Shown here in pieces: positions 4,692 through 25,461 of a stretch of DNA of 40,587 bases. The translations under genes and the position numbers were made by a program. This DNA is from an uncultured Methylococcaceae bacterium. Lineage in GTDB: Bacteria; Pseudomonadota; Gammaproteobacteria; Methylococcales; Methylomonadaceae. Every line of letters begins with the position of its first letter. The first letter of the stretch is position 1. The notes under the pieces are model-generated. The model did not search any database. It saw nothing but the letters and a program-made list of their open reading frames with translations, and had not been told where the DNA came from. Location: contig CAIQNQ010000108.1 of assembly GCA_903873165.1 (NCBI GenBank), positions 1-40,587 of the forward strand, written 5' to 3'.

Positions 4692-6383
4692 TTATTGCAA
4701 TTCTATAAATGCACCTGTTGCGCCTGCACCTGTTGGACCAACGCTAAAGTTATCATAAACCCAAGGCACAATACCCAAATGTGTATAACCATCACCCGCT
4801 TGATGAGTGAATGGTACGATTGGATGAGAAGCTAAAAATGGCACATCAATCGCACCTGCATCTGTTACCGTAGTAGCAAATACCCCTGTTTGACCCCAAG
4901 CTTGAATTAATGCAGTATCAACTTTAGCAGCAATAGCAATGGTAGATAAAGCTTTTCCAAAGTCAGTAAATAAACTAACTTCATGCGTAGTACCGACAGT
5001 AGGGTTAACTAAAACCTCACCCTCAGCCCACAATGGATAGTTACCTGATGCTACGTTTTCAATAGTGGGTGCATAGCCATCAATTTTCACAAAACGGTAA
5101 GCTTTACCACCAGTACCAGCCGCAGTAACGGCTGTATTTCTGTCAGCACTGCTTATCGCGACACCCCAATATTTAGCAGCAAGAGCATTTAAATTACTAG
5201 TGTTAGTACCCGCTTGCCAGTCTACTAATAACGATTCTGTTCCAGAGGCACCACCTGGTGATTTAACGATAGGTGCAGTATTCGTTTCATCTGTAGTCGT
5301 TGTTGGTGTAGCTTGTGCTGGTGCCACAGCACTTTCAGCATAAGGGTAGTTTAATAACTTAGCATAGGCAACCGCACCAATCGCCGCACCGGTATTACGT
5401 CTACCTACTGCCACTTTATCATTGGTTGGAGCAGAAACCCCAGCCGCTGTTAAAAAGCTAGTGTCATTAAGGGGTTTTAGTGTACCACCCACATTAACTT
5501 CAACATTTGACCAATGTTGAATATTACCTTGTAATAAAGCCGCTAAGAAGTTACGGCTCAAGGTAGGTAAACTAGCTTGATCATAAGCACCGATTACAGT
5601 TGATGCGGGCAAAGTGCCGGATGCTTTTTGAGCAGCCTGTAACACTTTATATAAATCAAGTGTTACACCTACACCATAAACTAAACCACCTGTTGGGATA
5701 CGAGTAAGCGGTGTTAAATCTTTAGTTTTATAGCCACTGATCCAACCAGCAGTTAGTGCATTAGTAGATACTTCTTTCACAGGATCAGGGTAGTTTTCTG
5801 TACCCGGTTTTAATAAAGCCGCTGCGTCAACGCCTGTAAAACCACCGTGTGATTTTGTTGAGGTTAAAAAAGTCGCCGCATTGGCATTCGTAATTGACGC
5901 GGCATGAAATGGCACGGCATAAGTAGTACCGCCAATATTACTATTGACAGTCGTATTTGTCCAAGTTGCCGAAAGTTGACTTGTCGCACTATGGAAGATA
6001 TCTAAATGATCAAGATTGATGTTTGCTATTAATGGAACCACACCATATCCAGCCGCACCCAATGAGCGCTTTTCTAAAAGAATTTTTTTACCACGTAAAG
6101 CAGGATCAGTTAAGGTTGAAGCTCCAGTAAAGTAAAAAGCCGTGAAACGCGAACCATTACTTGAACCAGTAAGAACGTCTTGGAAAACATCCACCGACCC
6201 AGGTACTGATAAAGCTTCAAAAACTGCTTCTTGATAAGCGATATCTTGAGCAGCACCACCTGAAGTATAAATCGTAAAATCAGGCGCACCATCTGTCCAA
6301 GGGTTTAATGCGTGTGCAACGTTTGTCGTTGCGATACCGGCGATAGCCAGAGCTAACGCACTTAGTTTATGTAATTTTTTCAT
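4692..6383 (-). CDS. Exported PstS-like (periplasmic-binding type 2) substrate-binding-domain protein
   Basis: 563 residues starting with a clear Sec signal peptide (MKKLHKLSALALAIAGIATT, cleavage likely after NVAHA). The mature protein has PstS-like landmarks in order: an early substrate-loop-like YTSGGAAQDIAYQEAV, a later GLVYGVGVTLDLY, a LSRNFLAALLQGNIQHWSNV segment recalling the PstS 'IFxGKIxxWNDP' region, VGRRNTGAAIGAVAYAKLL in place of the PstS R-S-x-x-S-G-T segment, and a late GYAPTIENVASGNYPLW. It is longer than classical PstS (about 320-350 residues), and no pstCAB genes are near, so a phosphate-transport role is not supported. It sits 55 bp downstream of the VPLPA-CTERM gene on the same strand and is probably co-transcribed with it. 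It may be a secreted or periplasmic ligand-binding protein; the ligand is unknown. Confidence 0.7.
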   Translation of the reverse strand: MKKLHKLSALALAIAGIATTNVAHALNPWTDGAPDFTIYTSGGAAQDIAYQEAVFEALSVPGSVDVFQDVLTGSSNGSRFTAFYFTGASTLTDPALRGKKILLEKRSLGAAGYGVVPLIANINLDHLDIFHSATSQLSATWTNTTVNSNIGGTTYAVPFHAASITNANAATFLTSTKSHGGFTGVDAAALLKPGTENYPDPVKEVSTNALTAGWISGYKTKDLTPLTRIPTGGLVYGVGVTLDLYKVLQAAQKASGTLPASTVIGAYDQASLPTLSRNFLAALLQGNIQHWSNVEVNVGGTLKPLNDTSFLTAAGVSAPTNDKVAVGRRNTGAAIGAVAYAKLLNYPYAESAVAPAQATPTTTTDETNTAPIVKSPGGASGTESLLVDWQAGTNTSNLNALAAKYWGVAISSADRNTAVTAAGTGGKAYRFVKIDGYAPTIENVASGNYPLWAEGEVLVNPTVGTTHEVSLFTDFGKALSTIAIAAKVDTALIQAWGQTGVFATTVTDAGAIDVPFLASHPIVPFTHQAGDGYTHLGIVPWVYDNFSVGPTGAGATGAFIELQ

Positions 6384-6438: not shown

Positions 6439-7278
6439 TTAGGCTTTAAATGCTTTTCGACGATTTAAACCTAAAAAACCCATCAAGCCTGTTAAAAATA
6501 ACCAAGCAGCAGCTGGCAATGGCACTGCCGCTACATTAGCAGGCTGAAAAGTTAAAACATTATTAGCCGCTAAAGAAAAAGTACCTAACAAATTAGCGGT
6601 ACTTGGACCAGATCCAGTAGCGCTTGGATTAGTAATCCAATAAAAATTATCGGCACCTAAACCAGTAACTGAAGGTCCATGCGTTCCAGAAGCTCCTAGT
6701 TGACCCAAGCTTGGAAAATAATCCTCATAAAATGAAGTTGATGAACTATTTTTAACTTTATCACCCACATTATTACCAATCACGTCACCAGTATTGATAA
6801 TGGTTTCAAAAGAATTAATCCAGCTTCCAATTGCACCCGTTGGACTCAACGCATTATTAATGGCTGTAGCACCCTTCGCAAAATCGCTTGCGACAACCCC
6901 AGTAGATAGTGCGCCCCATTGCGTTAAATTGGTCGAGTTTTTGCTTTCACCACCCACAATTGACCATGTTAAATTCGCAGTATCTGCGGCATAATTAGCA
7001 AATTGTGAAACATTTGCAAGGTTCCAGGTCAATGATCCGTTAGTGCCCTCTGTTCCATTTACAAAACTGCGAGAATTAAGTCCAGTATCACCCAAAGCCA
7101 AATCATAATAAAAAGTATGTAAATAATTTGCGCTAGCTGAATTATTATCTGTTGCTGCAAAAACAATCGAAGATGAAGTAGGCGTTGTACTAGAGCCAGG
7201 AGACGTTAAAGCCGCAGACGCACCGCTGGCCAATAAAGCCATTGCTACACCAGCAGCTATTTTTGTTGATTTTTTCAT
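6439..7278 (-). CDS. VPLPA-CTERM sorting-signal protein with a ~220-residue domain shared with the RTX protein at 8246-9832
   Basis: I place the start at the ATG at 7278, preceded by AGAGG, rather than at an in-frame ATG 177 bp further out, because it gives a proper signal peptide: MKKSTKIAAGVAMALLASGA with cleavage near SAA. The 279-residue product ends with VPLPAAAWLF (from about residue 252), a hydrophobic helix and the basic tail NRRKAFKA. This is the layout of the VPLPA/PEP-CTERM signals handled by exosortase-type systems. Residues about 24-245 form a domain I do not recognise, nearly identical to residues 17-240 of the RTX protein (shared phrases include NYLHTFYYDLALGD, NLTQWGALSTGV and DNFYWITNPSATGSGPS). 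Expected location is the cell envelope or extracellular matrix. Control module A (7394-7441) lies 116 bp upstream of the start. Function is unknown. Confidence 0.85.
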   Translation of the reverse strand: MKKSTKIAAGVAMALLASGASAALTSPGSSTTPTSSSIVFAATDNNSASANYLHTFYYDLALGDTGLNSRSFVNGTEGTNGSLTWNLANVSQFANYAADTANLTWSIVGGESKNSTNLTQWGALSTGVVASDFAKGATAINNALSPTGAIGSWINSFETIINTGDVIGNNVGDKVKNSSSTSFYEDYFPSLGQLGASGTHGPSVTGLGADNFYWITNPSATGSGPSTANLLGTFSLAANNVLTFQPANVAAVPLPAAAWLFLTGLMGFLGLNRRKAFKA

Positions 7279-7393
7279 GTGTGAACCTCTAATAAAAAAA
7301 AATAAAAGTGTTGCTTTATATTTAAAAGCAATCACCATGCCAAAACATAAGCCATTGTTATTTATTGTTTTTCTACTAGCTCTTCTAAAAAAA

Positions 7394-7441
7394 TGCTGAT
7401 TTACAAACACCAAGTGTTTGTTGTATGTTGATATTTCAGCA
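7394..7441 (-). promoter_or_regulatory. Control module A (three phased TGTT half-sites) upstream of the VPLPA-CTERM gene
   Basis: On the plus strand TGCTGA-N4-CAAACA starts at 7394, TGTTTG at 7415 and TGTTGA-N4-TCAGCA at 7426, i.e. offsets 0, +21 and +32. The same layout occurs at 9947 and 15403. An AT-rich promoter-like stretch with AACAAT (7364-7369) lies between the module and the gene. The best reading is an activator-binding region for the minus-strand promoter. Confidence 0.6.
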
Positions 7442-7601
7442 GATGTATTGCACATTACTTAATCTAAATCGATAGCCATAAACTAAGATAGGCACTAGGA
7501 TATTTAACCCTTATTTATTTTTAAAATAAATTATATTATCGATAAATAACTTAAATTTTAGAAAATTTTTTGCCAAGTCTTAACAATTTTTATTTTGCAA
7601 T

Positions 7602-8099
7602 AAACATTTTGTGACAGGTGTTTACAAAATTTATTTAACCTCAAACAACTTTGTAAAATGGTTTTACAAAGTTTTCTCCCATCTAAACAATTTTGTAATC
7701 GGTGCTGACAAAATTTTTTAACGACAAACAATTTTTCAAACAGACATTACAAAACTTTCTCGACTCTAAGCAATTTTGTGATGAGTGCTAACAAATTTTT
7801 TAAGTAACGATTAATTTTGCCAGCAGACTTTACAAAACCTTTTCAGGCCTAAACAATTTTGCAACGAGAGCTAACAAGATTTTTTGGCAACAAACAATTT
7901 TTTCAACGGACTTTACAAAATTTTCTCAGGTCTAAACAATCTTATGATGAGAAGTAACAAATTTTTTAAGCCGCAAATAATTTTGCAAGCAGTCTTTACA
8001 AAATTTTCTCGATTCACAACAATTTTGTCTTGGGTGGTGATAATTTTTTTAAACGGCAAACAATTTTTCAAGCAGATCTTACAAAACTTTGTCAGTTTT
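7602..8099. repeat. Six diverged 83-bp tandem repeats with helically phased A/T tracts
   Basis: Units start at 7602, 7685, 7768, 7851, 7934 and 8017, each 83 bp with essentially no indels but many substitutions. Typical unit starts are AAACAATTTTGTAATCGGTG and AAGCAATTTTGTGATGAGTG. Each unit is itself two half-units of about 41 and 42 bp, both beginning with a form of AAACAATTTT and both containing a TTACAAAA-like block. A/T tracts therefore fall about every 20.75 bp, close to two helical turns. A worn half-unit may precede the array (about 7553-7601). The array lies between the RTX gene stop and control module A. No gene is supported in it; short ORFs here are chance products of repetitive AT-rich sequence. 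Confidence 0.9.
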
Positions 8100-8245
8100 A
8101 AAGGGTGTTATATGTATTATTACCCTAATCATTTAACGAAAAATTTTTATTAATTACTTATAATCTTTAAATCACTTGACTTTAATCAACACGATTATAG
8201 CCAAGTGAATGTATGAGTTATTAAATTAGATATAATATTAGGCAA

Positions 8246-9832
8246 CTAAAATAAAATGATATCTGTAGCTGTCAATAAAGGATGTGATGTTGGCGTACCT
8301 AATACTTCAATAGCAACTGGTGCAGTTGAACCAGTTCCATCACTGTCATACGATAAAACGCCCGATTTTGTATTATAAATTAACCGATCATTGGCATCAT
8401 GCGCTGTACCAGCAGTACTAGACCAAAATCTCTGATCATTTTTAGCAAATGCGCCTGTAACGCCTAATGCAGCAAATACAGATTTACTAAATTGCAAATC
8501 ATCTGCTCCAGGAGCAAAGTCAGTAATTGTATCAAAATTAGTGGTTTTATTTGGAGCTGTATTAGCGTAGAAAATATCATTTCCTGTACCACCACTTAAG
8601 GTGTCATTACCAGCACCACCAATAATTAGGTCATTACCTGCACCACCAATAATCTTATCATTACCCGCTAAACCGTTGATCGTATCAGTACCACCTTTAG
8701 TGGCAGTGGCATTGAGTGTATCGGCTTTAGCTGTTCCATTAATTACATTGGAAACTGAAATTTTAGCTTGAACTGGCGTAGTTGAAGTTAAACCACCATT
8801 ATCTTTTGCTACAACTGTAAAAGCATTCAATGCACCACTCGCATTATTAGCTGGTGTCCAAAATGCGATATGTGTGGAATCAACAATATGATTAGTTGAT
8901 GCATTATATGCTGTAGCATGGGCTGCATCCGCACCTATCTTTAATGTACCTGTACTCACAGCTTTTATATCAAATGCAGTCACACTTCCATCGGCATCTT
9001 TTGCATCACTTTTAGTTTTTAAACTATCAAACGTGACTGCTATTTGTTTATTCTGTAGGCCTGTTGAAACGTCAGCAGTAAATTTTGTTAGAGTTGGAGC
9101 TTTATTAACTGCATTAGCCGCATGATATGTTAAAACGTTATTAGCCGCTAAAGAAAAAGCACCTAATAAATTAGCTTTACTTGGTCCAGATCCAGTTGCA
9201 CTTGGATTGGTAATCCAATAAAAATTATCAGTGCCTAATCCCGTTACAAAAGGCCCGTGAGTCCCTGACGCGCCTAACGCACCTAAATGCGGGAAATATA
9301 AATCCTGAAAAGAAGTTGATGAATCTATTTTAGTTTTATCACCCACGTTATTACCAATCACATCGCCAGTATTAATATTAATATTGAAGGCATTAATCCA
9401 ACTTCCAATCGCTCCCGTTGGACTCAAAGAATTATTAATCGCTGTAGCACCTTTCGCAAAATCAGTCGCGGCAACTCCTGTAGATAGTGCGCCCCATTGC
9501 GTTAAATTAGTCGAGTTTTTACTTTCACCACCCACGACAGACCAGGTTAAATAGGCAGAATCCGCAGCATAATTAGCAAATTGTGAAACATTTGAAAAAT
9601 TCCAAGCCAAAGTTCCGTTAGTGCCTTGTGTGCCGTTTACAAAGCTACGCGAATTAAGACCCGCATCTCCCAACGCCAAATCATAATAAAATGTATGTAA
9701 GTAATTTGCGCTATGTGAATTAGTATCTGTTGCCGCAAAAAGAATCGAAGATGAAGTAGGACTTGTACTTGACCCAGGAGTTGTTAAATTAGTTGATACA
9801 GCGACTGCTTGGTTGGTATTAAGAACGGTCAT
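8246..9832 (-). CDS. RTX (hemolysin-type calcium-binding repeat) protein, probable type I secretion substrate
   Basis: 528 residues; start ATG 9832 with AGAGGATAAATA just upstream. There is no signal peptide; the N-terminus is MTVLNTNQAVAVSTN. Residues about 17-240 are a near-copy of the VPLPA-CTERM protein's domain. Residues about 243-362 look like a cadherin/Ig-like module (VTFDSLKTKSDAKDADGSVT to SVSN). Residues about 366-424 carry glycine-rich nonapeptide repeats (LAGNDKIIGGAGNDLIIGGA, then GNDTLSGGTGND). The end is a C-terminal block finishing in TATDIILF, like RTX C-terminal secretion signals. Such repeats bind calcium outside the cell, and substrates leave through an ABC/MFP/TolC type I exporter; none is encoded here. 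Control module B lies 115 bp upstream of the start. I see no clear terminator after the stop. The function of the N-terminal domain is unknown. Confidence 0.88.
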   Translation of the reverse strand: MTVLNTNQAVAVSTNLTTPGSSTSPTSSSILFAATDTNSHSANYLHTFYYDLALGDAGLNSRSFVNGTQGTNGTLAWNFSNVSQFANYAADSAYLTWSVVGGESKNSTNLTQWGALSTGVAATDFAKGATAINNSLSPTGAIGSWINAFNININTGDVIGNNVGDKTKIDSSTSFQDLYFPHLGALGASGTHGPFVTGLGTDNFYWITNPSATGSGPSKANLLGAFSLAANNVLTYHAANAVNKAPTLTKFTADVSTGLQNKQIAVTFDSLKTKSDAKDADGSVTAFDIKAVSTGTLKIGADAAHATAYNASTNHIVDSTHIAFWTPANNASGALNAFTVVAKDNGGLTSTTPVQAKISVSNVINGTAKADTLNATATKGGTDTINGLAGNDKIIGGAGNDLIIGGAGNDTLSGGTGNDIFYANTAPNKTTNFDTITDFAPGADDLQFSKSVFAALGVTGAFAKNDQRFWSSTAGTAHDANDRLIYNTKSGVLSYDSDGTGSTAPVAIEVLGTPTSHPLLTATDIILF

Positions 9833-9946
9833 TTATTTATCCTCTAATAAATAATAATAAAAGTGTTACCAATTCAAACTGCAATAATTATGCCTAATAG
9901 TAACCCATTGTTTTATTGTATATTTTTTTGAAAAAGCATTTAAAAG

Positions 9947-9994
9947 TGTTGAAATATAAACACTATCTGTTGGTTTACTGTTGAAATATCAACA
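9947..9994 (-). promoter_or_regulatory. Control module B upstream of the RTX gene
   Basis: TGTTGA-N4-TAAACA starts at 9947, TGTTGG at 9968 and the perfect dyad TGTTGA-AATA-TCAACA at 9979: offsets 0, +21, +32, as in modules A and C. A TACAAT-like -10 (minus strand, 9915-9920) lies between module and gene; the -35 is not convincing. The rest of the 298-bp spacer 9833-10130 holds only the terminator of the desulfurase operon. Confidence 0.65.
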
Positions 9995-10086
9995 CCTTTT
10001 TTGCACAATTGCTCATCGACACCAAGGAGGGTAACCGCTACTTTAAGGATATTTAGAAATAAAACTGAGGCAAACAAGAAACATAA

Positions 10087-10121
10087 AAGCCCTACTCTTA
10101 ACGAATGCAAGAGCAGGGCTT
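10087..10121 (-). terminator. Intrinsic terminator of the encapsulin/cysteine operon
   Basis: On minus, AAGCCCTGCTCTT and AAGAGTAGGGCTT form a 13-bp stem (one non-Watson-Crick pair, nine-base loop) followed by TTATGTTT. It begins about 10 bp after the cysteine desulfurase stop codon. The stem is strong; the U tract is short. Confidence 0.8.
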
Positions 10122-10130
10122 ATTTAAGCT

Positions 10131-12182
10131 TTAAACGATATAACCACTTTTAATGCGTCTTACGGTATCCACTAACAGATCAACCTCTGCGTGGGTATTG
10201 TAAAAAGCTAAAGAAGGCCGAACCGTTGTTTCCAGACCAAAGCGACGCAAGATAGGCTGAGCACAATGATGACCCGTACGCACTGCAATACCCACTTTAT
10301 TAAGCTGCACACCAATATCCTGATTACTATGACCGTCTAAGACAAAAGATAACACACTGGTTTTTTCTGCTGCCGTACCAATTAAATGCAAGCCTGAAAT
10401 ACTTCTTAAGGCATCCATCGCATAGAGTAATAACTCATGCTCATAACGAGCAATATTATCAATACCTACTTTGGAAACATACTCTAAGGCCGCACCTAAG
10501 CCTACAGCATCAGCAATATTACCGGTACCCGCTTCAAATTTTGCGGGGGCTGGTTGATAGACAATCTTTTCGAAAGTGACATCTTCAATCATATTACCGC
10601 CACCTTGCCAAGGTTGAGTAGACTCAAGCAAGTCAGCTTTGCCATATAAAGCACCAATACCCGTAGGACCAAAAATTTTATGACCAGAAAATACAAACCA
10701 ATCACAATCCAAGGCTTGCACGTCTGCCCGCAAATGCGAAACAGATTGGGCGCCATCTAACAGGACACGAGCACCTACTCGATGTGCCATTTCGATCATT
10801 TCTTTAGCAGGTGTCACTGTGCCTAAGGCATTAGACACTTGCGTAAAAGATACCAGTTTAGTTTTAGACGAGAGTAATTTTTGATACTCATCTAATAACA
10901 CTTGACCATGATCATCTACGGGTGCCACTTTTAATACCGCACCTCTAGCATCACACAGTTGTTTCCAAGGCACGATATTAGCGTGATGTTCCAGCCAAGT
11001 AATGACTATCTCATCGCCTTCTCTAATGTTTTGATAACCCCAACTTTTTGCGACTAAATTAATCGCTTCGGTGGTGCCTCTGGCAAAAACAATCTCAGAA
11101 GATGATGATGCATTAAGAAACTTAGCCACAATATCCCGAGCTTTTTCGTATGCATCTGTTGATCTAGCTGCTAACTCATGCGCTGCACGGTGAATATTAG
11201 AGTTCTCGTGCTCATAAAAATACGAAATTCTGTCTATTACCGATTGCGGTTTTTGCGTGGTAGCCGCATTGTCAAACCAAACTAAAGGATGGCCATTTAC
11301 GCGCTCTTTTAGTATCGGAAAGTCACGACGTATCGCATGTACATCAAAAGCAGGATGCGCAGAACTGATTGGCGTCGCTTGAGGGCTATATTCTCCCGTT
11401 TTTAATTCATCAAGAAAATAAAATGAGGGAGTTTCCTCAAGCTTTACCGGTGCTTTTTCACTAACTGCAAAGATTGCTTTTATTTCGGCTTCACCCGGTA
11501 AACCATAAGTTTCTGGTGCTAATCCTGCAATTAAAGCAGGATTAAAGCCATTAAAATCTTTTGGCAAACCTGTTGGAACCGATACATTGGGTTGCTCAAC
11601 TTTTTTATCGGCAAACAGTTTTTGCAACTCCGTTTCAAAAGATTGAGGTGAGCTATTTAAGTCATAAGTTTTAGCTAATTCAGCAGGCACGGCAGAACTA
11701 TTAGCTTCAACTTCTGGTGTCGCAGCGGGATGACTTTCCGCCGGACGACGTGAAACCAATAATTGTTGTAACTGTGCTTCATCGGGCAAACCAAAATCAC
11801 TCGGTAAAATACCTGATAATGCAGATTTATCAAAGTTTGCTAAACTATGTTCAGTAGAAGGTGCACCACCCAATACGGGGCTGGTATCGATACTATGAGG
11901 CACATCTGTATACGAGCTTTGTGGCTTCGCAAAAAACTTATTTAACTCTGCTTCACCGGGTAAATCAAACACTTGTTGCCCAAAATTATTGGGCAAGCTG
12001 GTTTGATTAAAACCCGGCAAAGGTGACGTTACCGTGTTAGGTATCTCATTAGGCAATGCTGCTTTAGCAAGACCTAAACGAGAACCATCACAAGGTAACG
12101 CCGTAAATAACTCATTTGCCAGCTTTGTTAACTGCGTAATATCTGGCAGAGAAGAAGGTGGTTCAAAGTTATTTGTAGTCAT
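10131..12182 (-). CDS. SufS-type cysteine desulfurase with long repetitive N-terminal encapsulin-targeting extension
   Basis: PLP enzyme that removes sulfur from L-cysteine as an enzyme-bound persulfide. I choose the ATG at 12182 (MTTNNFEPP, 683 aa); it overlaps the shell gene stop by 14 bp, suggesting translational coupling. A longer in-frame start at 12215 is possible. The catalytic domain starts near residue 277 (AFDVHAIRRDFPILKERVNG). It contains the PLP lysine in FVFSGHKIFGPTG and the catalytic cysteine (about residue 640) in RTGHHCAQP. About 275 residues precede it: Pro/Ser-rich, probably disordered, with recurring short helices LTKLANELFTALP (about 14-30), FDLPGEAELNKFFA, FGLPDEAQLQQLL, ETELQKLFA and YGLPGEAEIKAIFA. 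In characterised type 2A encapsulins such as S. elongatus SrpI, an extension like this loads the desulfurase into the shell. Cargo status follows from the extension and adjacency to the shell gene. Confidence 0.92.
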   Translation of the reverse strand: MTTNNFEPPSSLPDITQLTKLANELFTALPCDGSRLGLAKAALPNEIPNTVTSPLPGFNQTSLPNNFGQQVFDLPGEAELNKFFAKPQSSYTDVPHSIDTSPVLGGAPSTEHSLANFDKSALSGILPSDFGLPDEAQLQQLLVSRRPAESHPAATPEVEANSSAVPAELAKTYDLNSSPQSFETELQKLFADKKVEQPNVSVPTGLPKDFNGFNPALIAGLAPETYGLPGEAEIKAIFAVSEKAPVKLEETPSFYFLDELKTGEYSPQATPISSAHPAFDVHAIRRDFPILKERVNGHPLVWFDNAATTQKPQSVIDRISYFYEHENSNIHRAAHELAARSTDAYEKARDIVAKFLNASSSSEIVFARGTTEAINLVAKSWGYQNIREGDEIVITWLEHHANIVPWKQLCDARGAVLKVAPVDDHGQVLLDEYQKLLSSKTKLVSFTQVSNALGTVTPAKEMIEMAHRVGARVLLDGAQSVSHLRADVQALDCDWFVFSGHKIFGPTGIGALYGKADLLESTQPWQGGGNMIEDVTFEKIVYQPAPAKFEAGTGNIADAVGLGAALEYVSKVGIDNIARYEHELLLYAMDALRSISGLHLIGTAAEKTSVLSFVLDGHSNQDIGVQLNKVGIAVRTGHHCAQPILRRFGLETTVRPSLAFYNTHAEVDLLVDTVRRIKSGYIV

Positions 12183-13086
12183 GGTATCTGCCCACTTCGA
12201 CATTCTCGAGCACACCTAGTGCATCATCAGTCAATACTGCGATAGAGCAATATAGTGAGATTAAATAAGAGGCAATCGCTTTATGATTGATACCCATAAA
12301 ACGCACAGAAAGACCCATGCTCAATTCACCAGTAAGGTTAGGTTGGTATAAACCAACAACCCCTTGACGGCTTTCACCCGTACGTAATAACAAGATGCTA
12401 CTTTTACCATTAACCACTTTCACTTTATCAGATGGGATAATCGGTAAGCCACGCCATGTTAAAAATTGTGAACCAAATAAAGTCACGATAGCTGGCGGTA
12501 CGCCACGACGGGTACATTCACGACCAAACGCCGCAATAGTTTGTGGATGCGCTAAGAAGAATGCAGGCTCTTTCCACACGCGTGAAATTAATTCATCCAT
12601 ATCATCAGGTGTTGGTGCGCCATTACGCGGTTGAATTCTGAAGCCCGGCGCAACGTTATTTAACAAACCGTATTCAGCATTGTTGATTAATTCGCTTTCT
12701 TGGCGCTCTTTAATCGTTTCAATTGTTAAGCGTAATTGCTCATGGATTTGGTTATGTGGGCTGCTATATAAATCAGAGATACGAGTGTGTACGTCTAATA
12801 CCGTGTTAACTGCGTTTAAACGGTATTCACGACCCCATTCTTCGTAGTCTACAAAAGTTTGCGGTAATTCTTTTTCATCAAGACTTGAACAATCAACTAA
12901 CAGTCCTGCTTCATTTTTTACTTTATTGACACGGTAAATACCGGCTTCTAGTGGTTTCCATTGTAATAAATGCACTAACCATCTGGGTGTGATGGTTGAC
13001 AACATTGGGACGGTTTTGGTTGCATTAGCTAAGGTACGAGCTGCTACATCACCTAATGCGGTATTACCTTCATGGATATCTGACAT
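12169..13086 (-). CDS. Type 2A (SrpI-like) encapsulin shell protein
   Basis: 305 residues, start ATG 13086 with AGGA about eight bases upstream. The sequence (for example WLVHLLQWKPLEAGIYRVNK, the central FFLAHPQTIAAFGRECTRRG, and GVVGLYQPNLTGELSMGLSV) matches family 2A encapsulins, which have the HK97 phage-capsid fold and self-assemble into icosahedral compartments. The length is usual for the family. The downstream overlapping gene is a cysteine desulfurase with a targeting extension and the upstream genes make cysteine, the known context for this family. In studied systems the shell encloses the desulfurase and is linked to sulfur starvation or storage of elemental sulfur. No phage genes are nearby, so this is not a prophage capsid. 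Lies 139 bp downstream of the serine acetyltransferase gene. Confidence 0.93.
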   Translation of the reverse strand: MSDIHEGNTALGDVAARTLANATKTVPMLSTITPRWLVHLLQWKPLEAGIYRVNKVKNEAGLLVDCSSLDEKELPQTFVDYEEWGREYRLNAVNTVLDVHTRISDLYSSPHNQIHEQLRLTIETIKERQESELINNAEYGLLNNVAPGFRIQPRNGAPTPDDMDELISRVWKEPAFFLAHPQTIAAFGRECTRRGVPPAIVTLFGSQFLTWRGLPIIPSDKVKVVNGKSSILLLRTGESRQGVVGLYQPNLTGELSMGLSVRFMGINHKAIASYLISLYCSIAVLTDDALGVLENVEVGRYHDYK

Positions 13087-13155
13087 TGTTGTTTCCTATG
13101 GTTATTATAGTTAATGGGCTGAGATTTATTCCAACCTCCAGATTGAAATACTTTT

Positions 13156-13171
13156 GGAAGATAAATCTTCC
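13156..13171. other. Perfect 7-bp inverted repeat between serine acetyltransferase and shell genes
   Basis: GGAAGAT-AA-ATCTTCC lies in the 139-bp gap between the acetyltransferase stop and the shell start. There is no T tract, so termination is unlikely. It may be an mRNA processing or stability element that lets the shell be made at a different level from the enzymes, or a protein-binding dyad. Confidence 0.35.
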
Positions 13172-13225
13172 TTTAAATGAAAGCTGGAGCTTCCGTAAAC
13201 TTAATGACTGATATTTATAAAAAGT

Positions 13226-14164
13226 TTAAATACCACCACCATCATGAAACAATTCACTGCGCACATAAGCCTGAGAAATATTACTATTTGGTGGCACACT
13301 ATGGGTCAGCCAAACATTACCACCCACTGTTGTCCCTTTGCCTATAGTAATTCGCCCTAAAATAGTAGCGCCTGCATAAATAACCACGTCATCCTCAACA
13401 ATAGGATGTCTAGCATTACCTTTAACTAAAATGCCTTTACTGTCTTTTTCAAAACGCTTAGCACCTAAGGTCACTGCTTGATAGACTCGCACCCGTTTAC
13501 CGATAATAGCGGTTTCACCAATCACTACACCCGTACCATGATCAATAAAAAAACTTTCATCGATTCTGGCCCCTGGATGAATATCAATACCCGTCGCTGA
13601 ATGCGCAATTTCTGAAATAATACGCGCGACTAAAGGCGCACCTAATTGATAAAGCACATGCGCTAAACGATGGTGAATAATGGCTGTAATACCGGGGTAA
13701 CACACTAACACTTCATCAGGACTTCTTGCGGCAGGATCACCCTCATAAGCCGCCTGAATATCAGTATCAAGTAGTTTTCTGATAACAGGTAGTTGTGCGG
13801 CAAACTGCCGAGCTATACTGATTGCTTGTTCATCATCAGCATCATCTACACCTTGTAAGCCATAGACAAATTGCAACTCACGACTAATTTGTTTATAGAG
13901 TTTACGCAATAAATTTTCTAACGTATGACCCACAAAGTAATCGATACCCTCATCATTTAAATCAGGCAAACCCAATCGGTTTGGAAATAAAACCCCCCCC
14001 AAACCGTCTAAGATTAATTGCAACTCTTTACGAGAAGGTAATTTAGGCGGACGATTCAATAAACTTCTGGTTTCTAATGAATGTAAACGTAAATCCCTTA
14101 GTTGCGCGACTAAGCTATCAATACCCCAATCATAATGACCACTTAAAGGATGGTAGTCGTTCAT
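13226..14164 (-). CDS. epsC: Serine O-acetyltransferase, EpsC type
   Basis: Makes O-acetylserine from serine and acetyl-CoA, the first step of cysteine synthesis. 312 residues; a helical N-terminal half (about 1-180) precedes a left-handed beta-helix of hexapeptide repeats ([39 protein letters not shown], then [20 protein letters not shown]). The catalytic-type His/Asp set is visible in the DIHPGARI and IDHGTG segments. The length and [17 protein letters not shown] segment fit the EpsC branch found in encapsulin loci, longer than enterobacterial CysE. The start codon overlaps the cysteine synthase stop (ATGA), indicating coupled translation. Sure of the reaction; the gene name is by family. 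Confidence 0.92.
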
Positions 14165-15138
14165 GCAGCAAAACCACTCGCATCAAAAATACCCTCAAAA
14201 AGTGGCGAACTTAAATAACGTTCTCCAGAATCTGGCAACACCACTACAATTGTTTTACCAGCATTTTCTGGGCGTTGCGCAATACGATTTGCCACAGCAA
14301 CGGCGGCCCCACAAGAGATACCCGCTAAAATACCTTCTTCTTTAGCCAATCTTCTAGCGTAATCAATCGCCTCTTCATTTGTGACTTGCTGTACTTCATC
14401 AATCAATGAAAGATCAAGGTTATCAGGAATAAAACCTGCACCAATACCCTGTATTTTATGTGGGCCAGGTTGCAAAGGTTGACCCGCACGATATTGACTA
14501 ATCACCGGACTTGCAGCTGGCTCTACAGCAATAGATTGAATAGCTTTACCTTGCGTCTGTTTGATGTATCTTGATACGCCGGTAATAGTACCGCCTGTAC
14601 CTACTCCAGATACCAATATATCAATTTGACCATCCGTATCTTCCCAAATTTCTGGCCCTGTGGTCACTTCATGAATCGCCGGATTGGCTGGATTCTTAAA
14701 TTGTTGCAACAACACGTAACGCTCTGGATCGGATGCAGCAATTTCTTCTGCTTTTGCAATAGCGCCACTCATACCCTTTGCGCCTTCTGTTAATACTAAC
14801 TTTGAACCATAGGCAATGAGTAATTTACGACGCTCCAAACTCATGGTTTCCGGCATAGTCAAAGTAAGAGGAATTCCGATTGACGCCGCAACAAAAGCTA
14901 AAGCGATTCCAGTATTCCCACTCGTTGGTTCTACAAGTTCTTTACCTGACCCCAATAATCCGCGTTTTTGCGCATCCCAAATCAGAGCAGCACCAATACG
15001 ACATTTAACTGAATAAGCTGGATTTCGGCCTTCAATTTTTGCCAATACCGTGACGGATTCTGCATCAATAATACGATTAAGACGTACTAATGGTGTTTTA
15101 CCTATCGATTGAGAGTTATCTGTGTACCAATTTGCCAT
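14161..15138 (-). CDS. cysK: Cysteine synthase (O-acetylserine sulfhydrylase)
   Basis: PLP enzyme joining O-acetylserine and sulfide to give L-cysteine. 325 residues; the PLP lysine is about residue 45 in [18 protein letters not shown], the substrate loop is [13 protein letters not shown], the phosphate-binding glycine loop is [17 protein letters not shown], and [16 protein letters not shown] closes the chain. ATG 15138 follows a weak AGGAAATTATT ribosome site. First gene of the four-gene operon, overlapping the acetyltransferase by 4 bp. CysK and CysM are hard to separate by eye; the acetyltransferase partner favours CysK. A 265-bp upstream region carries a terminator-like hairpin and control module C. 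Confidence 0.93.
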
Positions 15139-15189
15139 AATAATTTCCTGATGTTTAATTGCTGGTTTGAACGGTAGTGAAATTTAGTC

Positions 15190-15223
15190 AAAAAAAAACC
15201 AGCTAACCTTTCAGATTCGCTGG
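15190..15223 (-). terminator. Terminator-like hairpin in the cysK leader (possible attenuator)
   Basis: On minus, CCAGCGAATC, loop TGAAA and GGTTAGCTGG (one internal mismatch, one G-T pair) are followed by nine T. It lies about 50 bases before the cysK start, so the upstream promoters fire into it. A second small hairpin CCGG-ACAA-CCGG (15227-15238) comes just before it. I do not recognise a known riboswitch class. Confidence 0.6.
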
Positions 15224-15247
15224 CTTCCGGTTGTCCGGTCAGTTTGC

Positions 15248-15274
15248 TTAAATCGAGTAAACTACTCTACACAT
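15248..15274 (-). CDS. Possible eight-codon leader peptide with a cysteine codon
   Basis: ATG at 15274 reads M-C-R-V-V-Y-S-I then TAA. It lies about 25 bases before the CCGG hairpin and terminator-like hairpin of the cysK leader. A cysteine codon in position two directly ahead of a cysteine-biosynthesis attenuator would make sense for cysteine-tRNA sensing. Against it: no good ribosome site is visible, it is very short, and it overlaps a candidate promoter (TTGACA at 15282-15287). Kept as a low-confidence call. Confidence 0.25.
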   Translation of the reverse strand: MCRVVYSI

Positions 15275-15287
15275 TATTTTTTGTCAA
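15259..15287 (-). promoter_or_regulatory. Candidate proximal sigma-70 promoter of the cysteine/encapsulin operon
   Basis: On minus, a perfect TTGACA (15282-15287) is followed after 17 bp by TAGTTT (15259-15264), a poor -10. If used, it would bypass the uORF but still transcribe the terminator-like hairpin. Confidence 0.3.
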
Positions 15288-15367
15288 ACGTGAGAAGAAC
15301 GTTATTGTACAAGAGTTAATTCTTGATCATAACAGCACACGCAATGCCAAAGAGCAACCTTTTGTAT

Positions 15368-15395
15368 ATTGTATACATTTATGTAAATTTGTCCA
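15368..15395 (-). promoter_or_regulatory. Candidate distal promoter adjoining control module C
   Basis: On minus, TGGACA (15390-15395), a 16-bp spacer and TACAAT (15368-15373) each differ from consensus at one position. Control module C starts 8 bp upstream of the -35, the usual place for an activator. Transcripts from here would carry the uORF and both leader hairpins. Confidence 0.45.
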
Positions 15396-15402
15396 ATAAA
15401 AG

Positions 15403-15450
15403 TGTTGATTTACAAACAAGTTATGTTGATAGTATGTTGATATACCAACA
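15403..15450 (-). promoter_or_regulatory. Control module C upstream of the cysK-epsC-encapsulin-desulfurase operon
   Basis: TGTTGA-N4-CAAACA starts at 15403, TGTTGA at 15424 and TGTTGA-TATA-CCAACA at 15435: the same 0/+21/+32 geometry and orientation as modules A and B. By my count it matches module A at 36 of 48 positions although the downstream genes are unrelated. It lies in the 446-bp divergent spacer 15139-15584, so an effect on the plus-strand ATP-grasp gene cannot be excluded. Nothing else was recognised in 15451-15584. Confidence 0.65.
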
Positions 15451-15584
15451 CTCTGATTTATCATATCCCCTAACCATTAATTTATAGTGTTTAATATGCA
15501 GATCGACTATAAAATTTAATATTTAAATCTGGCATTAATCATGCTGTAATCTTTAACGAACTAAACTCTAAAAGCTGAAATACC

Positions 15585-17036
15585 ATGAAATCAATTTGGG
15601 AAAACTATAAAACTGACGTTGCTTACGATGAGTTGATGTATTCCGAGTTTCAATCTCGACCTGTGAGCCATCAACTATGCCAATATCTAGATTCACTCAA
15701 TAAAGATGATATCGATAAACGAAAAAATGCTGCTGAACTAGCCATTATGGAAATGGGTATCAGCTTTACAGTCTACAGCGATGAAGGAAATATAGACAGG
15801 GCGTGGCCTTTCGACATTATTCCCCGTATTCTTGATGCTCGTGAATGGCGCACTATAGAAAAAGGCTTAAAGCAACGCTTAACTGCCTTAAACTGTTTCA
15901 TCAGTGATGTTTACGGTGAGCAGGCCTTTATTAAAGACGGCAAAATGCCAGGTGAAATCGTGAACAGTTCGAAGAACTTTCGCAAAGAATGCGTAGGCAT
16001 GAAGCCTCGCCATAATGTGTGGGCTAATATTTGTGGCACTGATTTGGTGCGCGATAAAGATGGGATTATGTATGTATTAGAAGACAATTTACGCGTCCCG
16101 TCTGGCGTGTCTTATATGCTAGAAAATCGAATTATTACTAAACGTGTGTTTCCTGAATTATTTCAAGATATTGATATTCTACCTATTGATGACTATCCCA
16201 CGCACTTACACGACATGCTCACGTCAATAGCACCGCACCAAAATGGACAAGTAACCACCGCAGTTCTCACCCCTGGCATCTACAACTCTGCCTATTTTGA
16301 ACATGCCTTCTTAGCACAGCAAATGGGTGCGCAATTAGTTGAAGGTAATGATTTAGTCGTTAACGATGATAACTGCGTCTATATGAAGACTATCAGAGGC
16401 CTTGAAAAAGTGGATGTCATTTATCGTAGGATTGATGATGACTTTTTGGATCCAGAGGTGTTTCGTAAAGACTCAACGCTTGGGGTGCCCGGCTTAATGC
16501 GTGCTTGGAAAGCTGGTAATGTTGCCTTGGCTAATGCGCCAGGTGCGGGTGTCGCTGATGATAAGGTAGTCTATGCTTATGTGCCAGAAATGATACGTTA
16601 TTATCTTAACGAAGAACCTATACTACCGAACGTCCCCACTTATTTATGTAGCAATCCAGATCATCTTGCCTATGTTCTGGAGCATCTCGCCGAATTAGTA
16701 GTTAAACCCGCTAATGAGTCTGGTGGATATGGTATGTTAGTAGGACCGCATGCAACAATCAAAGAAGTAGAAAACTTTCGAGAAATTATCCAAAAAGATC
16801 CGCGTAACTATATTGCCCAACCTACCTTATCAATATCTACCGCACCAACACTGTGCAAAAGCAGGCTAGAGCCTAGACATATTGATTTACGCCCCTTTAT
16901 CTTACAAGGTGAAAACACCTTTGTTACTGCGGGCGGCCTGACTCGGGTGGCTTTAAAGAAGGGTTCATTAGTCGTTAATTCTTCTCAAGGTGGTGGTAGT
17001 AAAGATACTTGGATTATCAACATGGAGGAAAAATAA
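15585..17036 (+). CDS. Circularly permuted ATP-grasp family protein (DUF404/DUF407 type)
   Basis: 483 residues, start ATG 15585 with no strong ribosome site. Family segments in order: RAWPFDIIPRILDAREWRTI near the N-terminus, GVSYMLENRIITKRVFPELF, TPGIYNSAYFEHAFLAQQMG, RRIDDDFLDPEVF, VVKPANESGGYGML (nucleotide-binding loop) and RHIDLRPFILQG. Proteins of this fold are predicted ATP-dependent carboxylate-amine ligases forming amide bonds; no substrate is established. Paired with an alpha-E gene that starts inside its stop codon. A second, fused copy of the pair lies at 21366-23933 on the opposite strand, so the window carries two versions. Family membership is firm; the ligase activity is a published prediction for the family. 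Confidence 0.88.
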   Translation: MKSIWENYKTDVAYDELMYSEFQSRPVSHQLCQYLDSLNKDDIDKRKNAAELAIMEMGISFTVYSDEGNIDRAWPFDIIPRILDAREWRTIEKGLKQRLTALNCFISDVYGEQAFIKDGKMPGEIVNSSKNFRKECVGMKPRHNVWANICGTDLVRDKDGIMYVLEDNLRVPSGVSYMLENRIITKRVFPELFQDIDILPIDDYPTHLHDMLTSIAPHQNGQVTTAVLTPGIYNSAYFEHAFLAQQMGAQLVEGNDLVVNDDNCVYMKTIRGLEKVDVIYRRIDDDFLDPEVFRKDSTLGVPGLMRAWKAGNVALANAPGAGVADDKVVYAYVPEMIRYYLNEEPILPNVPTYLCSNPDHLAYVLEHLAELVVKPANESGGYGMLVGPHATIKEVENFREIIQKDPRNYIAQPTLSISTAPTLCKSRLEPRHIDLRPFILQGENTFVTAGGLTRVALKKGSLVVNSSQGGGSKDTWIINMEEK

Positions 17037-17971
17037 TGTTATCACGCTCAGCAGAACGAATCTATTGGCTTGCTAGATACATAGAACGCACAGAAAATAT
17101 TGCTAGACTGGTTAATGTTCACATGAATTTACTCATGGACTTACCAAAAGGCGTGGAAATGAACTGGCGGCAGTTAATTTTAATTAATGCTTCAGAACAA
17201 GCCTTCTTTGAAAAATATAACGTCGCTAATGAGCGAAATATTACCCGATTTTTATTGGCCGATGAAACTTATTCTGGCTCACTCTTATCTTCATTAACGG
17301 CTGCTAGAGAAAACATTCGTACCTCTAGAGATTTATTACCCGATGAAGCTTGGGAGCAAGTGAATGAAATGCATTTATTTGCTAAAAAGAATTTAGAAAC
17401 TGTCGCCAATAGACGCCACAGAGTCATTTTTCTGAATGAAATATTAAAAGGTTGCCAACGTTTTACAGGACTATTATCTGGCTATATGAGTCATAATGAC
17501 CCTTATGCTTTTATACGCTTAGGCAGAAATATTGAACGCGCAGACATGACCAGTCGCATATTAGATTTAGCATCCCTACTTTTTTCTGAATCACGGAGTG
17601 ATGAAGTTCGCCAATATGAAACTATTCTATGGATGAATGTATTAAAAGCCTTAAACGCCCTGCTAATGTATCGTCAACAAAAACATAGTCGTGTCAATGG
17701 CAATGACGTTGTCAACTTTCTATTACAAGACACTAATTTACCTCGTTCTATCAGTTGCTGTTTATCTGAAATTTCAGTATGTATTACCAAGTTACCAAAC
17801 CATCACGATTTACCTAAAAAAGTAGTTCAATTACAGACTTATTTACAAACCATAGATAATACGGAAACCTCACAATCTCAATTACGTGGAGTTCTTGATG
17901 ACTTACAAAACAAACTAGGCGGGTTGCACAATGAGATTACCAACAATTGGTTTTTAATTGTAGTCGATTAA
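17036..17971 (+). CDS. Alpha-E domain protein (DUF403)
   Basis: I take the ATG at 17036, which shares one base with the upstream stop (TAATG) and has GGAGG about eight bases upstream; 311 residues. The N-terminus LSRSAERIYWLARYIERTEN is the alpha-E signature, and the whole chain is predicted helical (YAFIRLGRNIERADMTSRIL repeats the R-x-I-E-R pattern). Alpha-E proteins are partners of circularly permuted ATP-grasp and transglutaminase-like proteins; the molecular role is unknown. Translationally coupled to the ATP-grasp gene. Confidence 0.9.
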   Translation: MLSRSAERIYWLARYIERTENIARLVNVHMNLLMDLPKGVEMNWRQLILINASEQAFFEKYNVANERNITRFLLADETYSGSLLSSLTAARENIRTSRDLLPDEAWEQVNEMHLFAKKNLETVANRRHRVIFLNEILKGCQRFTGLLSGYMSHNDPYAFIRLGRNIERADMTSRILDLASLLFSESRSDEVRQYETILWMNVLKALNALLMYRQQKHSRVNGNDVVNFLLQDTNLPRSISCCLSEISVCITKLPNHHDLPKKVVQLQTYLQTIDNTETSQSQLRGVLDDLQNKLGGLHNEITNNWFLIVVD

Positions 17972-17982
17972 TAAATCGTTAC

Positions 17983-18014
17983 TTTGTGAGTGAAGCACAG
18001 ACTTCACTCACAAA
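17983..18014. terminator. Bidirectional hairpin between convergent alpha-E and Anbu genes
   Basis: TTTGTGAGTGAAG (17983-17995) and CTTCACTCACAAA (18002-18014) form a perfect 13-bp stem with a six-base loop, 12 bp after one stop codon and 20 bp from the other. T tracts are only three bases, so it may act as a transcript-end hairpin for both operons. Confidence 0.7.
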
Positions 18015-18033
18015 TTCAACCCAAATACAAAAT

Positions 18034-18789
18034 TTATAAAACCCTACGCATAACCTTATGCGAAGCTTTATCTAAATCAGGAAGAGCGGCAATAGCCTCA
18101 CGTAATTTAGTTTCCCAACTGCGTCTTAGCTGTAACATATAATCATCGTCATCATCAAAGCAATAATATTCTTCAAAGCTATGACTATCTTTACGATAAA
18201 TAAGCATTTCAACCGGCGCACCCACACTCGCATTACTACGAATAGTTGAATCCATTGATACTAAACAGCAACGAGCCGCTTCATCAATCGGAGTATTTAA
18301 TTTTAAAAACCGATCCAAAATTGGTTTACCATATTTACTCTCGCCTATTTGCAAAAAAGGCGTATTAGCTGAAGTGGTGATGCTATTACCTTCTGCGTAA
18401 ACCATATAAGCAGCGGCTGGTTCGTCACCAATCTGACCAGCAATAATAAAACTAGCTGTTGGGTTAAAAGCAGACTGCCCCTGATTTGATTTATGCTGTT
18501 TTTGCTTCTCTACACTAACATGACCCAAGTAATCAGCGGCCTCAAATAAACCCTCTACATTATTGAGATTTATCTCAGCCTCTTTGATTTTATCACGATG
18601 TAATTGTTCTAATACGGCTTGAGTCGTTGCAAGATTACCCGCACTCAACAATACAATATGACGATCACTCAAGGTATCAAAAGCGTGCATTTTGCCATGT
18701 GTACTCACATTATCAATGCCTGCATTGGTTCTGGAATCAGAAACCAAAATTAACCCTTCGTCTATAGACGCTGCAATACAATATGTCAT
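18034..18789 (-). CDS. Anbu, proteasome beta-subunit-like Ntn hydrolase
   Basis: 251 residues beginning M-T-Y-C-I-A-A. Removal of Met would leave Thr as the N-terminal nucleophile. Asp18 in VSDSRTNAG and Lys33 in THGKMH (Asp17 and Lys32 in the mature chain) match the conserved proteasome beta residues. The Anbu-typical DEGLILVSDSRTNAGIDNVS segment identifies the family (ancestral beta subunit, related to HslV). The C-terminal region ends in an acidic run (FDDDDDY) and a helix. No ATPase unfoldase is next to it. Last gene of a five-gene minus-strand operon with ATP-grasp/alpha-E, two transglutaminases and a ParA-like ATPase. The ribosome site is weak. Substrate unknown. Confidence 0.93.
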   Translation of the reverse strand: MTYCIAASIDEGLILVSDSRTNAGIDNVSTHGKMHAFDTLSDRHIVLLSAGNLATTQAVLEQLHRDKIKEAEINLNNVEGLFEAADYLGHVSVEKQKQHKSNQGQSAFNPTASFIIAGQIGDEPAAAYMVYAEGNSITTSANTPFLQIGESKYGKPILDRFLKLNTPIDEAARCCLVSMDSTIRSNASVGAPVEMLIYRKDSHSFEEYYCFDDDDDYMLQLRRSWETKLREAIAALPDLDKASHKVMRRVL

Positions 18790-18820
18790 AATTTTTTAAT
18801 CGATGAAAATTTCTAATACG

Positions 18821-19609
18821 CTAATTATCCAGTAAATCAACCCTGACGTCCATATCGTTTAACAAACAACCGGAACCAAATTGATGAAAAATAGATACAT
18901 CCGCAGCATCTCGTCCAAATGCAACAATAACGCGCCCACCTAATAAAACAAATTGAGTTGGATCAAATGTATACCACTTCCCACCGACATAAGCTTCAAA
19001 CCAGGCATGTAAATCCATAGGCTGAAGCTTATATAAATAACCCACTACTAAACGGGTAGGAATACTAATACTTCGACATAAAGCGATAGCAACCTGCGCC
19101 AAATCCCGACAAACACCGTATCCACGCTGATGAACTTCTATAGCGGATAAAGGATATTCACTCGAACCAGGCACATACTCAATAAATTCTCGCACCCATT
19201 CATTAATTTTACTAACCTGATCATAACCTGGCAAAGCATCTTGGATTATCTCTCGCGCTAAGTCTCCAAAACGATCCGATTCACAATATCGACTGGGTAA
19301 TAAAAAAGGCAACACATAATTTGGCAAATCTTGTATTTCTACAAAATGCCCGCCTTGGGCAAGCTCTACTTTATCCCCCACGATCACATCGGTTGACGTA
19401 TAAATTAAAAAATTACCCACCGGTGCCATCAAGCGCTGCACAGAGTTACCGAAACTATCAGTACTTTCCAGCATGGGTATCACAGGCCGAACGACGTAAA
19501 CTTCTCGATTAATCCATTGCTGTATACCTCTAAAAGGCCTAAGCATTAGAATTAACACACTGGCTTCAACGACTTGAAAACGTAAGCTGCAACTAACTCT
19601 TAATTTCAT
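18821..19609 (-). CDS. Transglutaminase-like cysteine protease-fold protein (short form)
   Basis: 262 residues. The papain-like catalytic triad is complete: Cys167 in RGYGVCRDLAQVAIALCRS, His201 in MDLHAWFEAYVGGKW and Asp216 in YTFDPTQFVLLGG. The N-terminal ~110 residues are the beta-rich bacterial transglutaminase N-domain. No signal peptide, so probably cytoplasmic. Located 31 bp upstream of anbu and 49 bp downstream of the ParA-like gene. In this association such enzymes are predicted to cleave or transfer amide bonds made by the ATP-grasp partners. Confidence 0.88.
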   Translation of the reverse strand: MKLRVSCSLRFQVVEASVLILMLRPFRGIQQWINREVYVVRPVIPMLESTDSFGNSVQRLMAPVGNFLIYTSTDVIVGDKVELAQGGHFVEIQDLPNYVLPFLLPSRYCESDRFGDLAREIIQDALPGYDQVSKINEWVREFIEYVPGSSEYPLSAIEVHQRGYGVCRDLAQVAIALCRSISIPTRLVVGYLYKLQPMDLHAWFEAYVGGKWYTFDPTQFVLLGGRVIVAFGRDAADVSIFHQFGSGCLLNDMDVRVDLLDN

Positions 19610-19658
19610 ATCAATAAAATGGTTGCGAATAATCCTATGATTAGCTTAAATAATGACT

Positions 19659-20354: not shown

Positions 20355-20394
20355 CAAGCCCTCTTAATAAAAAAATAGTAAAACACGAAAAAAA

Positions 20395-23933: not shown

Positions 23934-24058
23934 CAAATATTCCTTATACAATTTTATATCGTGTTGCTATCCTTCTAATCGAAATACTATTAATTAAGAG
24001 ATAGTTAGCATGTATAAATTAAGCTTAAAAATAGAGTATTATATTAAAGAATTCTCAA

Positions 24059-25366: not shown

Positions 25367-25394
25367 TTATATAAGTCTCCTAATAATAGGTTGT

Positions 25395-25422
25395 TAACAC
25401 TATCTGATAATCGATAGTGTTA
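25395..25422. other. Perfect 10-bp inverted repeat upstream of gltA
   Basis: TAACACTATC, loop TGATAATC, then GATAGTGTTA, between the DUF2126 stop and the gltA start. No T tract follows on minus. It could be a 3'-end hairpin for the DUF2126 transcript, a gltA leader hairpin or an operator; the sequence alone does not decide. Confidence 0.45.
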
Positions 25423-25461
25423 GAATTTTAATCACACTAGTTTAACCCACCCAACCAAAAT

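Follow-up and report, generated by a model that had tools for sequence, protein, structure and literature searches.

In a 40,587-nt stretch of DNA from an uncultured Methylococcaceae bacterium (GenBank assembly GCA_903873165.1, contig CAIQNQ010000108.1, positions 1 to 40,587; hereafter the window), three similar 48-bp modules lie upstream of three units, two of which begin with genes for exported proteins (units A and B) while the third is an operon that joins cysteine synthase to a family 2A encapsulin (unit C), raising the question of what kind of regulator would address all three. The answer that we consider probable is that each module is an upstream activating sequence (UAS) for an SfnR-type sigma-54 enhancer-binding protein, encoded on C8 of the same genome, which would switch on units A, B and C with sulfur limitation as the signal.

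The modules had been reported in a preliminary description of the window, and both their positions (Table 1) and their pairwise identity of 34-36 of 48 were reproduced exactly (A/B 34, A/C 36, B/C 34); the top unrelated 48-mers within the window reach 26, 27 and 28 identities to A, B and C, respectively. When scored with a matrix built without the window modules, A, B and C reach 63.8-66.5 bits, and the rest of the window at most 14 bits. All three precede genes on the minus strand, and read in gene direction each is made up of a dyad, 16 bases and a second dyad, the two 16-bp dyads (TGYTGA-N4-TCARCA) lying 32 bp apart with a half-site between them. Self-complementarity bears out the dyads, at 12, 14 and 14 of 16 positions for the right-hand 16-mers of A, B and C, and at 8, 12 and 10 of 16 for the weaker left-hand ones. 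The inner half-site, described at offset +21, is real as well, since the 5-mer CARCA stands at the equivalent offset in 28 of the 43 distinct modules that were oriented by a sigma-54 site (a set that includes window module B, via L329), compared with 3 of 43 for the next-commonest tested offset; the copy in module A has one mismatch. Genomes with the dyad pair number 11 of 35 in the genus and 25 of 121 in the family, and the genes behind it are unrelated, hence the modules represent more than mere duplication, as the description had argued.

Table 1. Features of the window that bear on the three modules (aa, amino acids; Cys and Met, numbers of cysteine and methionine residues).
Feature	Position	Strand	Remarks
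Gene downstream of A, exported protein (by eye), unknown family	4692..6383	-	563 aa, Cys 0, Met 1
Gene A, VPLPA-CTERM exported protein	6439..7278	-	279 aa, Cys 0, Met 3; TIGR03370
Sigma-54 -24/-12 promoter of A, TGGCATGGTGATTGCT	7327..7342	-	51 bases past module A; 10/11 consensus bases
Module A, candidate UAS (enhancer)	7394..7441	-	dyads 7426-7441 and 7394-7409; half-site 7415-7420 CAAACA, one mismatch
Gene B, RTX-repeat protein	8246..9832	-	528 aa, Cys 0, Met 1; PF00353
Sigma-54 promoter of B, AGGCATAATTATTGCA	9880..9895	-	51 bases past module B; 8/11 consensus bases
Module B, candidate UAS	9947..9994	-	dyads 9979-9994 and 9947-9962; half-site 9968-9973 CCAACA
Encapsulin cargo cysteine desulfurase	10131..12215	-	NF041166 896.1 bits, over cut-off
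Family 2A encapsulin shell protein	12169..13086	-	NF041162 525.5 bits, over cut-off; PF19307 SrpI-like
epsC-type serine O-acetyltransferase	13226..14164	-	NF041874 166.4 bits, over cut-off
cysK, cysteine synthase A	14161..15138	-	TIGR01139 454.7 bits, over cut-off
Leader RNA, CCGG hairpin and terminator-like hairpin with U-tract	15180..15246	-	between promoter and cysK, ~67 nt
Sigma-70-like promoter, TTGACA-17 bp-TAGTTT	15259..15287	-	assigned by eye
Sigma-54 promoter of C, TGGCATTGCGTGTGCT	15334..15349	-	53 bases past module C; 8/11 consensus bases; identical in G282
Module C, candidate UAS	15403..15450	-	dyads 15435-15450 and 15403-15418; half-site 15424-15429 TCAACA

The class of the regulator is indicated by what lies downstream of the modules. 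A sigma-54 site, defined by at least 8 of 11 consensus bases with GG and GC fixed, stands behind 33 of 53 distinct modules, drawn from the window, three other stretches of its genome and 40 stretches from relatives, and every one of the 33 lies at 50-54 bases; at random positions, a site at 51-55 bases was met in 207 of 88,000 cases (one orientation). The genome also has rpoN (TIGR02395, 301.3 bits on C198, over the cut-off, with a C-terminal part giving 238.2 bits on C201). Judged by this arrangement, the modules resemble enhancers for a sigma-54 activator rather than LysR/CysB-type sites. The preliminary description had seen a real shared module, and its proposal of a single activator, with spacing near whole helical turns and a promoter nearby, is supported, but it named the wrong class of regulator and missed the minus-strand orientation and the sigma-54 promoters. 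Its LysR-type (CysB-like) activator sites, for which a strong distal and a weaker proximal dyad and the nearby cysK operon could speak, are by now exceedingly improbable and were set aside, given the sigma-54 sites at a fixed downstream distance and a layout that equals that of the msuE, sfnG and ssuD sites beside SfnR-type activators. LysR proteins are not known to use sigma-54 promoters. Their sites typically lie between about -65 and -35 relative to a sigma-70 promoter, and module C, which ends ~115 bases before the sigma-70-like -35 element, is too far away.

A search with TIGR02915 gave about ten sigma-54 activator loci in the genome, among which the most likely activator of the modules, to judge from the comparisons that follow, is a receiver-less, SfnR-like protein of 365 aa (G000:C8:2172-3266), whose gene is flanked by a ModC-like gene and one for an outer-membrane transporter (names by eye). 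Among ten activator loci, it is the best own-genome match for all six relatives from other genera that were used as queries (51-58% identity), although the test is only reciprocal because five of the six had originally been found by similarity to the C8 protein; the sixth was taken from the msu neighborhood of Pseudomonas aeruginosa. An SfnR-like activator (E<=1e-110) is encoded in 37 of the 121 family genomes, in 26 at 76-100% identity and in 11 only at 57-66%, and 23 of the 25 family genomes with the dyad pair hold it (Fisher p=4e-13, kinship uncorrected), while in the genus it occurs in 18 of 35 genomes, which include all 11 that have the dyad pair (p=1e-4, kinship uncorrected). A backward-pattern control for the dyad pair was found in 1 of 121 family and 0 of 35 genus genomes. 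In G166, two such activators (63% and 57% identity) accompany three dyad pairs. Co-occurrence is no proof, and another of the ~10 NtrC-family activators could bind the modules, the SfnR-like gene co-occurring for separate reasons. This is, however, distinctly unlikely, as the module together with a sigma-54 site stands directly before the SfnR-like activator gene itself in G259, G180 and G203, a module in L070 has a related activator gene (62.6% identical) on one side and a divergent target gene on the other, and the same layout recurs before msu/sfn genes beside relatives of the activator.

SfnR is a sigma-54 activator of dimethyl sulfone and sulfate-starvation genes in Pseudomonas, and is reportedly itself regulated by CysB and dependent on sigma-54. 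The annotated plasmid relatives of the C8 activator adjoin msuE, ssuD, sfnG or sfnB (L203 is unannotated), and when six plasmid loci and two sfnG loci were scanned for paired dyads, nine sigma-54 sites had two dyads 30-34 bp apart upstream, compared with one in reversed sequences. One of the nine precedes msuE on the P. aeruginosa plasmid, two are in Azospirillum (msuE-sfnG; amidohydrolase-ssuD), three in Methylocystis (sfnG; amidohydrolase; ssuD), one, weak, before a monooxygenase gene in Sphingobium and two in unannotated sequence of Variovorax. The distance from the second dyad to the promoter is 52-55 bases in four of five closely inspected sites (P. aeruginosa msuE, both Azospirillum sites, Methylocystis sfnG and ssuD) and 40 in the fifth. 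What is compared here are msu/sfn promoter sequences beside relatives of the activator. On these other-genus loci the Methylococcaceae matrix scores low (best per locus -24.3 to 9.0 bits), and although seven of eight beat their own reversed control, with L207 below it, loci without a clear site do so too, so that only L204, L205 and L206 (margin at least 14 bits, score at least 0) are informative. No match to sfnG was found in the genome of the window, where msu genes were not searched for, and among 143 class genomes sfnG passed the cut-off twice, neither locus having a paired site.

The presumed targets include genes for exported proteins. The product of gene A matches TIGR03370 with 22.5 bits as a protein (cut-off 25.35) and with 27.0 bits, over the cut-off, in the genome search, and the 55-bp gap to the gene at 4692-6383 suggests that the two form an operon. 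The protein encoded at 4692-6383 has no Pfam or NCBIfam match, yet a homolog (51% identical) lies behind the same module in L070, and look-alikes were seen by eye in L251, L257, L261 and L267; the N-terminal part of the gene B product is 84% identical to the gene A product over 211 aa. Elsewhere in the 3.46-Mb genome three genes follow the same layout, one on C83 for a DUF2341/laminin-G protein (Pfam), one on C256 for an exported protein whose tail is PEP-CTERM-like (by eye) and one on C226 for a response regulator (by eye); on C149 a degenerate copy precedes a second gene of the C256 kind. By-eye assignments in relatives place modules with a sigma-54 site before genes for VPLPA-type proteins, two-partner-type transporters, DUF2341 proteins and TetR, before homologs of the 4692-6383 gene, one rhodanese-like gene and the gene of the activator itself; the modules of another three rhodanese-like genes come without a sigma-54 site (by eye). 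A "sulfur-poor regulon" was dropped as evidence, as cysteine is also lacking from 13 of the other 20 VPLPA-CTERM frames in this genome (one of them a fragment of 46 aa), so that only the methionine counts of two proteins stand out.

Since gene A is a VPLPA-CTERM gene, the modules could instead be part of PrsK-PrsR-RpoN regulation, which governs PEP-CTERM genes in Proteobacteria and in which a 17-nt motif and a sigma-54 site precede the genes (Haft et al., 2006; PMC1569441). Motif 1 of that study has TTTACA at its end and is located 32-92 nt (mean 62.8) upstream of the promoter; the spacing in the window falls within this range, and TTTACA is contained in the proximal dyads of A and C, in the orientation opposite to the gene. 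This origin is nevertheless very improbable: the double dyad is absent from the description of that motif, module B lacks TTTACA, and the 21 VPLPA-CTERM matches in the genome include only gene A as one known to lie behind a module, none being found before the other 20 as far as the loci reach (the upstream scan also missed the module of gene A, as the start codon had been taken upstream of it). PrsR as the activator is disfavored by this difference in motif and by the cut-off, which no protein of the genome reaches (best 334.9 versus 502.6 bits; PrsK was not searched for).

Some further observations concern the dyads and their surroundings. Between the 3' end of gene B and module A, the window contains an AT-rich array (7601-8094) of six copies with an 83-bp period and 72% match, the units of which contain TTTACAAAATTTT and CAATTTTG. 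A perfect dyad pair precedes a sulfate-binding-like gene (by eye) in L265 (G197:C1:1903030), with no sigma-54 site at the usual distance. Dyad pairs also lie near genes for 2Fe-2S subunits resembling molybdenum hydroxylases (by eye) in L282, L247 and L248, a strong sigma-54 site being found only in L282; together with the ModC-like genes that adjoin the activator in the genome of the window, this may hint at a link to molybdenum.

For unit C, the question is whether the module is tied to the genes behind it. Before cysK, module and sigma-54 site occur together in two of 27 cysK-bearing genus genomes, that of the window and G282 (some of the 27 loci end at contig edges, e.g., L299 and L300), and in G268 (L282) a module lies near cysK but before a divergent gene. 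A lack of conservation upstream of orthologs had been named in advance as an argument against a shared module; it applies in part, since module C was found before cysK in no more than these two of the 27 genomes. Among 80 encapsulin loci of the genome collection, L056, L058 and L070 have a module close to the operon (59.5-71.4 bits) that stands in front of some other gene, and for the encapsulin operon itself there is a single, weak candidate, ahead of epsC-encapsulin in L093 (28.4 bits); still weaker matches lie after the desulfurase gene in L069 (13.4 bits) and, pointing away from cysK, in L075 (8.1 bits), the maximum of the reversed control being -7.2. As the link of module C to cysK is present in one sister species and unseen in the other 25 cysK-bearing genus genomes, the putative module control of the cysK/encapsulin operon was acquired recently and locally, or occurs sporadically at most.

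The same rarity would fit a module C left over from the duplication of an exported-protein promoter, with no part in driving cysK, as would the paralogous genes behind A and B and the sigma-70-like promoter and leader between module C and cysK. We regard such a relic as unlikely. In G282 (L274) the outer arms of both dyads are kept, dyad 1 carries a symmetric double change (TGTTG..CAACA to TGCTG..CAGCA), the sigma-54 site is unchanged and the sigma-70 -35 element is lost, although the spacer next to the sigma-54 site has stayed the same as well; moreover, module, sigma-54 site and leader stand jointly before the activator gene in three genomes. Sequences similar to the sigma-70-like promoter precede cysK in relatives, and at L274, where the -35 part is gone and the sigma-54 promoter intact, it looks as if one promoter had supplanted the other. 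On the far side of module C, the window holds a cluster (15585-28857) of circularly permuted ATP-grasp (PF14403, 15585-17036), alpha-E-like and transglutaminase-like genes (by eye) with a second ATP-grasp-like gene, the first gene being divergent from cysK.

The leader RNA before cysK has a CCGG-loop-CCGG hairpin that is invariant in 32 aligned copies, and nine of 17 pairs have changed on both sides with pairing kept. At E<=1e-8 it is found in 47 of 74 encapsulin loci, before cysK, epsC or encapsulin genes, a count that is partly given by construction because the model was built mostly from encapsulin loci. It also lies upstream of the SfnR-like activator gene in G156, G259, G180 and G203 (L188, L224, L226 and L250), which are the four strong matches among 46 activator loci searched, besides one weak match (L180, 25.6 bits), and in G236 a leader-bearing cysK gene lies next to the activator locus. 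In G259, G180 and G203, the module, the sigma-54 site and the leader together form the same composite before the activator gene as in unit C. Of 21 genomes searched, 12 have one or two strong copies (>55 bits) and nine have none (at most 150 candidates scored per genome), and an Rfam search of 15000-15600 gave no family match, only five sub-threshold chance matches. These features make the leader a candidate sulfur-responsive attenuator or riboswitch, and if it is either, it would be a new sulfur-related RNA regulator.

Several results weigh against regulation of the three units by the C8 activator in response to sulfur. Twenty of the 53 modules lack a sigma-54 site in the expected interval; 14 of the 37 activator-positive family genomes lack the dyad pair at the stringency used, and two of 84 activator-negative ones, G230 and G246, have it, in what look like chance matches. 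The family and genus samples share eight genomes, and relatedness within them is uncorrected. None of the six queries matched to the C8 protein is annotated as SfnR, and two are long fusions of 662 and 725 aa. In the other genera, no dyad pair was found in Burkholderia pyrrocinia (L207) or the sfnG loci L142 and L143, and the two dyads of P. aeruginosa are 31 rather than 32 bp apart. No known sulfur-assimilation gene besides those of unit C was seen by eye behind the modules of the genome, and cysK has a sigma-70-like promoter of its own. The rarity of the module before cysK and before encapsulin operons counts here too. Finally, the leader was not found at the activator gene of the same genome (L172).

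Taken together, we still favor an SfnR-type activator, which would act as follows. Two dimers would bind the dyads, which are spaced by three helical turns, and the half-site between them would serve as a third contact; an AAA+ ring would assemble over this half-site, contact sigma-54 polymerase 51-53 bases downstream and open it. The exported proteins of units A and B would thereby be switched on, as would, through a recently acquired second promoter, cysK, epsC, encapsulin and cysteine desulfurase, and the transcript of unit C would then meet the terminator-like leader RNA as a second layer of control. What the sequences themselves show is the module, the promoter, the distance between the two, the co-occurrence with the activator and the like arrangement before msu/sfn genes. 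Binding by the activator, the signal and the function of the leader are what we infer; sulfur limitation, as in Pseudomonas, is the likely signal because of the biology of SfnR and the induction of SrpI in Synechococcus, and the sulfur theme of the preliminary description is plausible to this extent.

Such control would give the family 2A encapsulin operon a named candidate activator, binding site and promoter, and link exported proteins of methanotrophs, of which little is understood, to a sulfur-type regulator; with one module before both kinds of genes, sulfur handling and the cell surface may be co-controlled. More tentatively, and somewhat short of probable in our view, an SfnR-type activator could have been rewired in Methylococcaceae from organosulfur scavenging to a cysteine/encapsulin and cell-surface regulon, with the new leader RNA, placed before cysK and in some species also before the activator gene, sensing the same sulfur metabolite. 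The surface set of that regulon would comprise VPLPA-CTERM and RTX proteins, a two-partner-secretion transporter, an ExbB-like protein and further exported proteins that contain hardly any cysteine or none. The novelty of a link between SfnR and encapsulin or PEP-CTERM genes rests on full-text literature searches, in which no paper joined encapsulin with RpoN or SfnR with PEP-CTERM, most subscription papers lying outside their coverage.

Among known systems, PrsK-PrsR-RpoN regulation shares sigma-54 control of PEP-CTERM-type genes (PMC1569441), but the motif is a different one here, and no PrsR exceeds the cut-off. Unit C resembles the family 2A encapsulin/cysteine desulfurase (SrpI) operons in its shell, desulfurase cargo, cysK and serine acetyltransferase, and differs in the sigma-54 promoter and enhancer in front. 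In the passages drawn on (PMC9850573, PMC8049743, PMC8346489, PMC13352529, PMC8234197), SrpI is up under sulfate starvation in Synechococcus, and no activator is described for the family 2A encapsulin operon outside cyanobacteria. The closest likeness is to the SfnR-type msu/sfn promoters, with two dyads ~32 bp apart (a spacing of 30-33 bp at the msu/sfn promoters) followed by a sigma-54 site, and to SfnR itself, as the candidate is likewise a receiver-less sigma-54 activator. The half-sites differ at base 6, being mostly TGYTGA here and TGYTGC beside msu/sfn genes, and the presumed targets differ as well, namely exported proteins here, the activator's own gene in relatives and the cysK-encapsulin operon in two species. 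SfnR-type sigma-54 control is of a known kind, and its putative targets here would be new.

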